Both the position numbers and the translations under genes were made by a program. DNA of 64,000 nucleotides, taken from assembly GCF_014837045.1 (NCBI RefSeq), contig NZ_JACSPR010000007.1:1-64000 (forward strand), in the 5' to 3' direction. This document shows, in pieces, positions 1 to 2,155 of this stretch (the stretch's first letter is position 1; each line of letters begins with the position of its first letter). The notes beneath the pieces were generated by a model, which ran no database searches, was not told the origin of the DNA, and was given only the letters and a program-made list of their open reading frames with translations. This stretch comes from Corynebacterium gallinarum (GTDB lineage: Bacteria > Actinomycetota > Actinomycetes > Mycobacteriales > Mycobacteriaceae).

Positions 1-72
1 GAAATTGGGTATGGCATGGACCCAACTATCAATAGTGCAGGCGAACCAGCCCCGAAGGGTTGGGTAAGGTAG
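1..72 (+). CDS. C-terminal end of an unidentified protein (cut by window start)
   Basis: The frame beginning at base 1 is open for 23 codons and stops with TAG at 70-72, and a good intrinsic terminator follows 23 bases later. This arrangement is what the 3' end of a plus-strand gene would look like. The visible tail (ending ...PAPKGWVR) is too short to assign to a family. A second frame is also open for nearly as long, so the call rests mainly on the terminator position. Confidence 0.35.
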   Translation, partial: EIGYGMDPTINSAGEPAPKGWVR

Positions 73-94
73 AAGCTGTTACCACATCCTCAGA

Positions 95-126
95 GCCCGC
101 GGTCATCATTTGGCCGCGGGTTTTGT
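95..126 (+). terminator. Intrinsic terminator
   Basis: A perfect 7-bp stem CCCGCGG/CCGCGGG (96-102 and 114-120) with an 11-base loop is followed by TTTTGT. It probably ends the gene running in from the left edge. Confidence 0.7.
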
Positions 127-414
127 CATGCTTTGAGACCGCCCAGCAGTTTTCCTGACGGGGTTGGGTTCCTCACCCCCCCCCATCATGTTGCCGTGAG
201 GCCCTCTCTCTCCGGTTGGGTTGGGCTGTTTTCATCACTGGGAAAGGACTGTTGCGAAGGTTTCACACGCGCGACCCCGGGTAGTGCTAGAGACAGAGAG
301 GGCAAAAAACCGGGAAATGATCAGAGACAGCACCTGTACCCGCTTGGGAAAAGTGGTGGGACGTTCCACGCTCACGCGCGCATGGAGGTGCCCCGAACGT
401 GCAGATTGAGTGAA
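127..414. other. Noncoding stretch, no gene seen
   Basis: About 290 bases between the first terminator and the tRNA terminator. Short open frames exist on both strands, but none has a convincing ribosome binding site or a recognisable product. The only notable feature is a run of nine C at 176-184. I see no RNA gene here. Confidence 0.5.
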
Positions 415-468
415 GGAAAATAATAAGTGGAGACTTTTTGGAGAGTTACCTCCATCTAGTCTCCACTT
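415..468 (-). terminator. Terminator downstream of the UAA tRNA
   Basis: A perfect 10-bp inverted repeat AAGTGGAGAC/GTCTCCACTT (425-434 and 459-468) lies 25 bases beyond the tRNA 3' end. On the minus strand it is followed by a T-rich run (ATTATTTTCC). Position and polarity fit termination of the tRNA transcript. Confidence 0.65.
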
Positions 469-492
469 CACCAGTCTTTACACTGGTCACTG

Positions 493-566
493 TGCCCCCA
501 GTGGGACTCGAACCCACACTGAATTGATTTTAAGTCAACCGCCTCTGCCGATTGGGCTATGGGGGC
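493..566 (-). tRNA. tRNA with UAA anticodon (Leu), short variable loop
   Basis: The minus strand folds into a complete cloverleaf of 74 nt: acceptor GCCCCCA/TGGGGGC, anticodon stem GTTGA/TCAAT with loop CTTAAAA (anticodon UAA), T arm GTGGG-TTCGAGT-CCCAC, and discriminator A73. CCA is not encoded. UAA reads the leucine codon UUA. The variable loop is only five bases (TCAGT), whereas bacterial tRNA-Leu normally carries a long class II arm. The D stem has three pairs plus one mismatch. My memory is that mycobacteria have a similar tRNA near ppx2, but I cannot verify it here. The identity as leucine rests on the anticodon. Confidence 0.85.
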
Positions 567-632
567 GCCGTACCAGCCGACACCAGAACATCATAGAACA
601 TGGCACCGGCCGGTCAGGTGAGAAGGGCCCGG

Positions 633-1601
633 TTAGGGTGACACGGCGCCGTATTCCTCCACGAGCCCCAGGATGAGGCCGTCGAGGATGTCTTTCTCCG
701 AGATGACAATGGAGTTGACCCCGGCTTCACGGGCAGCCAGGTCGATGGCCCCCTGGACCACCACGGATCCACCGGCGATGACGTCGGCGCGACCCGGATC
801 CACCACCGGGTTACTGGCCCGCTGTGCGGACGACTCCCGGATGATCTCGTCGGTGACCACCCGCAGGGCGTCGAAATTCAGCTCCGAGAGATGGATGGCC
901 GCCCGGTCGTAGGATTCCAGTCCCTGCACCCACGCCGAGATGGTGGTGAAGGTACCGGCCACACCCACGAAGGTGTTCGCCTTGGAGATCGGCACGATGG
1001 CGCTGACATCCGCGATCCGTTCGGCGACATAATCGCGGGCGATCTCGACCTCGGTGGCGGTGGGGGGATCACTGCGCATGATGCGTTCGGTCAGACGGAC
1101 ACACCCCATCTGTGCGGAGTGGGAGCCGAGGATCTCACCGTCGTGGGTGCCCACGATGAATTCGGTGGAGCCACCGCCCAGGTCGATGACGCAGAACGGT
1201 CCCTGTGCGGGATCCAGATCGGCCACCGCACCACGGAAGGACAGCTGTGCCTCCTCCTCCCCGGTGATGACCTCCGCCTGGTATCCGGGGCGGATCCGGG
1301 AGAGCAGGACGCGGGTCATGGAGAAGAACGCATCGCGGTTGGCGGCATCACGGGTGGCGGCGGTGGCCACCATGCGTACCACCTGCACGCCTTCGGCCTC
1401 CATGAGCTCGACGTACTCGGTCAGCGCGACGCGGGTGCGTTCGATGGCCTCCGGATCAAGTTCCCCGGTGGCATCCACGCCCTGGCCCAGGCGCACAATC
1501 CTGTTCTCCCGGGTGATCTCCCGGAAACCATCTGCGGTCACCTCGGTGATGAGCAGACGGATGGAGTTGGTACCACAGTCCACCGCGGCGAAACGGGTCA
1601 T
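633..1601 (-). CDS. ppx2: Exopolyphosphatase, Ppx/GppA family
   Basis: A 322-residue enzyme of the ASKHA superfamily that removes terminal phosphate from polyphosphate (members may also act on pppGpp). The phosphate-1 loop DCGTNSIRLL lies near residue 8, GEEEA near 113 and the glycine-rich VIDLGGGSTE near 140, all as expected. The length fits the short actinobacterial Ppx type without the C-terminal HD domain of E. coli Ppx. ATG at 1601 overlaps the TGA of the DUF501 gene by one base, which suggests translational coupling; a GTG one codon earlier is also possible. A PPK2 gene elsewhere in the window makes the opposite half of a polyphosphate cycle. The symbol follows C. glutamicum usage. Confidence 0.9.
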   Translation of the reverse strand: MTRFAAVDCGTNSIRLLITEVTADGFREITRENRIVRLGQGVDATGELDPEAIERTRVALTEYVELMEAEGVQVVRMVATAATRDAANRDAFFSMTRVLLSRIRPGYQAEVITGEEEAQLSFRGAVADLDPAQGPFCVIDLGGGSTEFIVGTHDGEILGSHSAQMGCVRLTERIMRSDPPTATEVEIARDYVAERIADVSAIVPISKANTFVGVAGTFTTISAWVQGLESYDRAAIHLSELNFDALRVVTDEIIRESSAQRASNPVVDPGRADVIAGGSVVVQGAIDLAAREAGVNSIVISEKDILDGLILGLVEEYGAVSP

Positions 1602-2155
1602 CACAGTCCCCCCGCCCGGGAGAAATCGAAATCGGTCAGCTCAATGCCGAGGTCCGCGGTGGTCGGCCAGTCCTGTGGGATGGCGGTGCCACGCAGCTCA
1701 CCGTGATCCGCGGCAAGTGCCACGGCCTCAGTGCCCAGACGGAAGTGGTCCGGCCCCTCCGCCAAGGCGTAGGCGATCAGGACATGCAGACACTTGACGC
1801 GATCGGGCATGCCACCACCGGAGAAATCGGTGCCCAGATCCTCGATCGCGTTGCGCTTGGCCAGGAAGTGGTCATGTGCCCGCTGGTAGTCGGCACGGAG
1901 GTCCTCATCGGTGTCGAGGCGATCCGTCATCCACTTCATCACATGTGCCACCTCGAGGCGGGAGGCCTCGGTGGTCAGGCGTGGATCGGTGAGGTAGTAC
2001 AAGGTCGGGAACGGGGTACCGTCCTCCAACCTGGGTGCTGTCATCACAACACCGGGGGCTCCGTCCGGGCACCGGTAGGAGATCTCCAGAACTCCGCGGG
2101 GAGCCCTCCCCAGTTGTTCTTCGACCGCGAGAAGGTCTGCTTCAGATACACTCAT
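1601..2155 (-). CDS. DUF501 family protein
   Basis: A 184-residue protein of the actinobacterial DUF501 family, recognised from the motif MPDRVKCLHVLIAYALA near residue 115 and from its fixed place between divIC and ppx2, an order I recall from mycobacteria too. It has no signal peptide or membrane segment, so it should be cytosolic. The function is unknown. Its stop overlaps the start of ppx2, and the divIC-like gene lies about 35 bases upstream, so the three are probably cotranscribed. Confidence 0.8.
   Translation of the reverse strand: MSVSEADLLAVEEQLGRAPRGVLEISYRCPDGAPGVVMTAPRLEDGTPFPTLYYLTDPRLTTEASRLEVAHVMKWMTDRLDTDEDLRADYQRAHDHFLAKRNAIEDLGTDFSGGGMPDRVKCLHVLIAYALAEGPDHFRLGTEAVALAADHGELRGTAIPQDWPTTADLGIELTDFDFSRAGGL

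Follow-up and report, generated by a model that had tools for sequence, protein, structure and literature searches.

A class I tRNA-Leu(UAA) gene in Corynebacterium gallinarum, and its counterparts among the actinobacteria

The locus and its neighbourhood

Near the left end of the 64,000-nucleotide stretch of Corynebacterium gallinarum DNA analysed here (the window) lies a gene for a leucine tRNA with anticodon UAA, encoded on the minus strand, a strand which the earlier note on this DNA did not give. ARAGORN calls a tRNA-Leu(taa) at 492-566, with base 492, a C, counted as the start of the CCA tail; the gene itself does not encode CCA, as it is followed by CAGT. The Rfam tRNA model (RF00005) covers the gene from end to end (493-566, minus strand), scoring 62.7 bits against a gathering score of 29 (E 3.2e-11). 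The stems comprise 7 bp in the acceptor, 3 bp in the D, 5 bp in the anticodon and 5 bp in the T arm, and base 73 is A. ARAGORN, Rfam and the anatomy together confirm the description in the earlier note of an anticodon UAA combined with a five-base variable loop, the class I form.

Class II tRNAs are marked by a long variable arm and by the lack of a 13-22 pair in the D-arm. The gene has a variable loop of 5 nt, as against 13–18 nt in the genome's own class II tRNA-Leu, while its 13-22 position is an unpaired C.A. Its D-loop, AAU(U/C)GGCAG, is the D-loop of the class II tRNA-Leu of the same genome, and it shares with bacterial class II tRNA-Leu, that of E. coli and the genome's own CUN readers, a leucine anticodon, A73, A15-U48, a GGCAGA D-loop and the unpaired 13-22. 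As its sequence is read here, it is a leucine tRNA that combines a D-arm of the class II type with the variable loop of class I. When the bare RNA was folded for minimum energy, the cloverleaf was not obtained; it is assigned because of the covariance model and of the compensatory substitutions in a set of 138 distinct class I sequences (see below).

Table 1. Coordinates of the features discussed. Positions without a prefix refer to the window.
Feature	Position	Strand	Evidence or remark
Class I tRNA-Leu(UAA) gene, 74 nt without CCA	493..566	minus	ARAGORN, Rfam tRNA, genus homologues
Anticodon UAA	530..532	minus	ARAGORN; anticodon loop CUUAAAA
Variable loop UCAGU, 5 nt	518..522	minus	
D-arm GCCC-AAUCGGCAG-AGGC	541..557	minus	3-bp stem, C13.A22 unpaired
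3' part of the tRNA, bases 41-74	493..526	minus	exact 34-nt copy at G000:C32:5300-5333
Promoter-like hexamer pair, weak	590..617	minus	24 nt upstream of tRNA; 1 found against 0.3 expected in shuffles
Ppx-like (exopolyphosphatase family) gene	633..1604	minus	66 nt upstream of tRNA; TIGR03706 E 2.4e-64, below curated cut-off
Class I tRNA-Leu(CAA)	G000:C1:51332-51405	minus	5-nt loop
Class II tRNA-Leu(CAA), genome G030	L316 642-726		
Class II tRNA-Leu(CAA), genome G003	L317 637-721		

Of 30 homologous tRNA loci, 21 have a Ppx homologue no more than 1.5 kb away. The sequences upstream of 30 tRNA-Leu(UAA) homologues revealed no clear conservation of a shared promoter, and a terminator scan found none. 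The exact copy of the 3' part of the gene directly follows two genes, one for an integrase (Phage_integrase, E 2e-12) and one for an HTH protein (L079 3371-5333). Similar repeats occur in two further genomes, with a 28-nt copy beside an integrase and 6.4 kb from the tRNA in G033 (L315 925-7422), and a 32-nt copy 3.2 kb away in G014 (L314 179-3438). The 3' part of the gene is likely the attachment site of an integrated element, and the left end of the window (1-526) would probably lie inside such an element, parts of which are on contigs C31 and C32.

Leucine tRNAs and the use of UUA in one genome

The genome (3.12 Mb in 33 contigs, 99.99% complete) contains 56 matches to the tRNA family, the anticodons of which were typed with ARAGORN. 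Leucine is served by one gene each with anticodon UAA, CAA, UAG and CAG and by two with GAG. The search for other UAA tRNAs that the earlier note had proposed was carried through, and no second one, class II or other, was present among the 56. The tRNA-Leu(CAA) is likewise of class I, while the four CUN tRNA-Leu genes are of class II. The readers of the UUR half-box are both armless and all readers of the CUN box are armed. One gene scores above the cut-off of the LeuRS family in this one genome and with one family model (G000:C27:35692-38490), and the remaining matches to the model, in three further large ORFs, fall below it, as expected of related synthetases. Alignment to full-length PDB LeuRS chains includes the C-terminal end of the enzyme (query 224-956 against 168-879 of 3zgz, from E. 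coli).

In 392 naive ORFs taken from 467 kb of the genome, UUA accounts for 154 of the 13,519 codons for leucine, and for approximately 0.7% when the first 41 codons are ignored, in line with the rarity stated in the earlier note; UUG accounts for 843 codons of the same set. A UUA codon in glmU was taken up as proof of use in an essential gene and dropped, as it is codon 10, ahead of the aligned domain, in an ORF with a probably over-extended start; the ORF counts were repeated without the first 41 codons. Counted in this way, UUA occurs in 71 of 390 ORFs of at least 100 amino acids and in 60 of 288 ORFs of at least 200 amino acids.

These counts bear on the regulatory role that the earlier note had envisaged by analogy with bldA of Streptomyces, a long-armed tRNA-Leu. 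In a system of this type the tRNA would be scarce, late or poorly charged, and UUA would limit the translation of a small gene set. The rarity of UUA (about 0.7–1.1% of leucine codons) and the presence of a single UAA tRNA in the genome fit this proposal. However, a bldA-type codon is confined to few, mostly non-essential genes, and the UUA of this genome is spread over many ORFs; furthermore, the tRNA-Leu(CAA), reader of the commoner UUG, has the same class I form, so the missing arm is not the mark of a UUA switch. Regulation in the manner of bldA is left without support and is considered improbable.

The meaning of the codons was approached through codon conservation, using the ORFs of the first 24 kb of the window together with 20 syntenic 20-kb blocks (18 from the genus, two from the order). 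Six ortholog groups with at least eight members were aligned, and a column was regarded as conserved where at least 70% of its non-UUR codons agree. Among conserved cells, which come from related genomes and are not independent, 68 of 77 UUA and 417 of 457 UUG stand in leucine columns, with mixed columns set aside (39 of 116 UUA and 184 of 641 UUG cells). The CUN controls gave 93–95% (CTG 1212/1301, CTC 737/792, CTT 268/287, CTA 107/113). By this indirect test, UUA and UUG mean leucine in the genus. As no other tRNA of the genome has anticodon UAA, the gene must supply the leucine at UUA. Since UUA and UUG are situated where relatives use CUN leucine codons, mischarging is unlikely, and the suggestion in the earlier note of a mischarged tRNA runs against the 68 of 77 UUA cells.

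Anatomy, leucine identity and charging

A total of 210 loci was examined, 130 of which were obtained with search patterns in which some letters of the D-loop, the anticodon loop and the T-loop are prescribed. They yielded 138 distinct class I UUR sequences (95 UAA, 43 CAA) and three of class II. The stems of the class I sequences are maintained through compensatory changes, with C11-G24 in 129 and U11-A24 in 8, and with five different base pairs represented at 29-41. The variable loop is 5 nt long in 137 sequences and 6 nt in one. Positions 13, 15, 46, 48 and 73 were left free by the search patterns and position 22 was fixed, a limit that applies to the C.A found at 13-22 in 138 of 138. Positions 15-48 are A-U in 129, G-C in 6 and A-C in 3, A73 is present in 137 of 138, and base 46, in the 137 with a 5-nt loop, is A in 125 and G in 12. 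The nearest neighbour of a sequence carries the same anticodon in 133 of the 138 cases, the sequences compared being short.

The unpaired 13-22 sets these tRNAs apart from most class I tRNAs of the genome, in which the pair is formed in 32 of 36 distinct sequences, the exceptions being both UUR tRNA-Leu, tRNA-Cys and tRNA-Gly(UCC); it is unpaired in 8 of 9 distinct class II tRNAs. In tRNAs with m7G46, base 46 pairs with C13-G22 (PMC6320965), so the core of the class I UUR tRNA-Leu must be packed otherwise.

Leucine identity in E. coli has been attributed to A73, A15-U48, G18G19 and an extra A in the D-loop, the long arm not being crucial and minimal variants without it remaining active, according to a 2023 review (PMC9976931). 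All of these elements are carried by tRNA-Leu(UAA), the extra D-loop A being numbered against the genome's class II tRNA-Leu. The combination of A15-U48 with A73 is present in 6 of 6 distinct tRNA-Leu of the genome, as against 2 of its 39 other distinct tRNAs (Arg-ACG and Lys-CUU). A15-U48 by itself is not unique to leucine, occurring in 6 of the 39, four of them without A73.

These features must be set against a mischarged or ambiguous tRNA, a class I molecule that would bear a leucine anticodon and another amino acid, with UUA partly recoded. Such a proposal can point to the class I form itself and to the body outside the D-arm, in which the genome's Arg and Met tRNAs are as close to it as the class II tRNA-Leu. 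It is countered by the share of UUA and UUG cells in leucine columns, which is nearly that of the CUN codons, and by the leucine identity elements kept across the 138 distinct relatives, which makes it very improbable. The bodies of the genome's tRNAs outside the D-arm do not discriminate between the loss of an arm and the remodelling of another class I tRNA.

The preferred reading, considered very probable, is that of a working leucine tRNA without the arm. It would be a genuine leucine tRNA and the only UAA-anticodon reader of the genome, with an identity specified by A73, A15-U48, G18G19 and the extra D-loop A within a class II-type D-arm that lacks the 13-22 pair. The gene would be expressed, and the same single LeuRS would charge both this tRNA and the armed CUN tRNAs, the long arm being dispensable, without an essential role. 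A counterweight is the contact of the long arm with the LeuRS C-terminal domain (PMC5059758), which the armless tRNA-Leu(UAA) cannot use.

Distribution, mobility and significance

In a DNA search with tRNA-Leu(UAA), all 37 of the 37 genus genomes gave a match that spans 72 or more of the 74 bases, as did 54 of 61 relatives overall a match of some kind, some of the latter through other tRNAs or fragments. The best 30 loci are all class I Leu(UAA), with 27 from the genus (this genome included) and three from the order. The corresponding search with the genome's tRNA-Leu(CAA) matched 56 of 61 relatives, and its best 30 loci, all from the genus, are class I Leu(CAA). Two genus genomes (G003 and G030) carry a class II tRNA-Leu(CAA) of 85 nt with CCA (Table 1), and no full-length class I CAA match was found in either, which represents a natural exchange of class I for class II Leu(CAA), or the reverse. 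In its body this class II tRNA is similar to the CUN tRNAs, which would fit an armed tRNA with an altered anticodon.

Comparison with actinobacterial genomes, also proposed in the earlier note, revealed a strict class I UUR pattern in 72 of 396 genomes of the phylum, with 0 in the reversed control. By rank, the pattern is present in 15 of 15 members of the own family, in all of which a UAA tRNA is matched, in 0 of 1 other genome of the order, in 12 of 22 others of the class and in 45 of 358 remaining genomes of the phylum. The class II counterpart was matched in 292 of the 396, this genome being unmatched. Both patterns fix several D-loop and T-loop letters, and an unmatched genome may still have the tRNA; several Streptomyces-like genomes (f18) match neither. 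Mosaic sets occur among the matches listed, with class I UAA and class II CAA in two families (f22, f67), and class I CAA and class II UAA in five genomes of another (f43). By these sequence matches, the class I UUR tRNA-Leu is common among actinobacteria. The earlier note had called the tRNA structurally odd, which is correct against the textbook and incorrect within the lineage, where the form is the rule (37 of 37 genus genomes with homologues, the 27 typed being all Leu(UAA), and 15 of 15 in the family).

A scan of named genomes returned at least 118 class I UUR stretches. Among the 80 loci listed, 74 are from actinobacterial records, including Corynebacterium, Mycobacterium, Nocardia, Gordonia, Rhodococcus, Bifidobacterium and Microbacterium, as well as Streptomyces records, in which the class I form carries CAA. 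Five belong to other groups (Chloroflexaceae, Planctomycetota, Rokuibacteriota, Deltaproteobacteria and Microcoleus) and one to an unspecified bacterium, these six being metagenome-assembled genomes in which contamination is possible. ARAGORN identifies all 81 matches in the 80 loci as tRNA-Leu. The phylum to which the Deltaproteobacteria record belongs gave 1 match in 148 genomes, that record only; the phylum of the Chloroflexaceae one gave 6 in 121, the record included. In the cyanobacterial Microcoleus bin (L201), a tRNA-Leu(CAA) of class I and a tRNA-Leu(UAA) with the arm are found on 4.8 kb of sequence, and in the Chloroflexaceae bin (L175 71-115, 321-365) a class I Leu(UAA) and Leu(CAA) stand approximately 250 bases apart on one strand.

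The tRNA-Leu(UAA) also matches 100 phage records, with 10 loci examined in detail. They contain 11 short-loop tRNA-Leu with a variable region of 5–7 nt and A73; nine loci have UAA and one (Gordonia phage Sixama) UAG, and an Acinetobacter phage has both. The UAG copies are located in the Acinetobacter phage PX050566.1, with its tRNA-Leu genes of both kinds at L361 32-107 and 144-219, and in Sixama (L358 151-226). As phage tRNA-Leu(UAG) also has a short variable region, armless phage leucine tRNAs are not limited to UUR. Rhodococcus phage Trina carries in addition an armed CAA tRNA with a variable region of 15 nt. Recorded hosts include Vibrio, Pseudomonas, Acinetobacter, Lactobacillus, Prochlorococcus and Sinorhizobium, and if the phage tRNAs work, the LeuRS of several phyla would accept an armless tRNA-Leu.

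Carriage of class I tRNA-Leu genes by phages, along with the 3' part repeated beside an integrase gene, would be expected of a pseudo-tRNA or a passenger of a mobile element, unused in translation. However, no other UAA tRNA exists in the almost complete genome, homologues are present throughout the genus, and the Ppx homologue adjoins the tRNA in most of the homologous loci (21 of 30). The repeat pattern, furthermore, fits an element which targets the gene and leaves it whole. An unused gene is considered very improbable, and a tRNA at work in translation is preferred. A broader proposal, offered tentatively and regarded as rather unlikely, is that the armless UUR tRNA-Leu are a single family of old origin, distinguished by a particular tertiary core (C13.A22, A15-U48 and, in most cases, A46). 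Its members would have passed from one bacterium to another, in part aboard phages that carry them, with several exchanges, in either direction, between armless and armed tRNA-Leu as readers of UUA or of UUG.

Short-loop leucine tRNAs are familiar from other systems. The animal mitochondrial tRNA-Leu(UUR) likewise reads UUR without a long arm, with A73 and A14 given as its main identity elements in the review (PMC9976931). Unlike the organellar tRNA, the gene described here is bacterial and chromosomal, in a genome of 3.12 Mb with 56 tRNA genes; its anticodon stem is regular, and the genome also has CUN tRNA-Leu with the arm and a single LeuRS gene. Phage tRNA-Leu, such as those of Cyanophage P-RSM6, Pseudomonas phage ZC03 and Vibrio phage phiKT1024, have the same short loop and A73, but are extra copies, found also in phages of hosts outside the phylum, with 2 of 11 bearing UAG. 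A Mycobacterium tRNA cluster is reported to include one short-loop tRNA-Leu(UAG) (PMC6582537); it resembles the present gene as a mycobacterial tRNA with a short variable loop, but is an extra, CUA-reading gene in a variable cluster, beside an armed isoacceptor, and not part of a UUR pair (PMC6582537). A study on UUA decoding in Streptomyces lists the tRNA-Leu genes and, in the text consulted, does not discuss the arm. No description of a class I UUR tRNA-Leu was found in the open-licence literature, and this widespread and presumably functional variant of tRNA-Leu is apparently undescribed in the phylum, as far as searched. The genes are labelled tRNA-Leu by gene finders and the sequences are already public. 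The variant contradicts the general statement, in the 2023 review, that tRNA-Leu is long-armed everywhere except in animal mitochondria (PMC9976931).

The variant may also matter for annotation. Some methods count on bacterial tRNA-Leu having a long variable region (PMC6297222), and loss of the long arm has been taken as the sign of a pseudogene (PMC8450103); methods built on either assumption could misjudge class I genes. For the genus and many genomes of the phylum, the finding would mean that UUA, and partly UUG, are read by armless tRNAs while the CUN tRNAs of the same cell are armed. They would provide a natural experiment on whether the arm, with its contact to the LeuRS C-terminal domain, matters for charging or editing.
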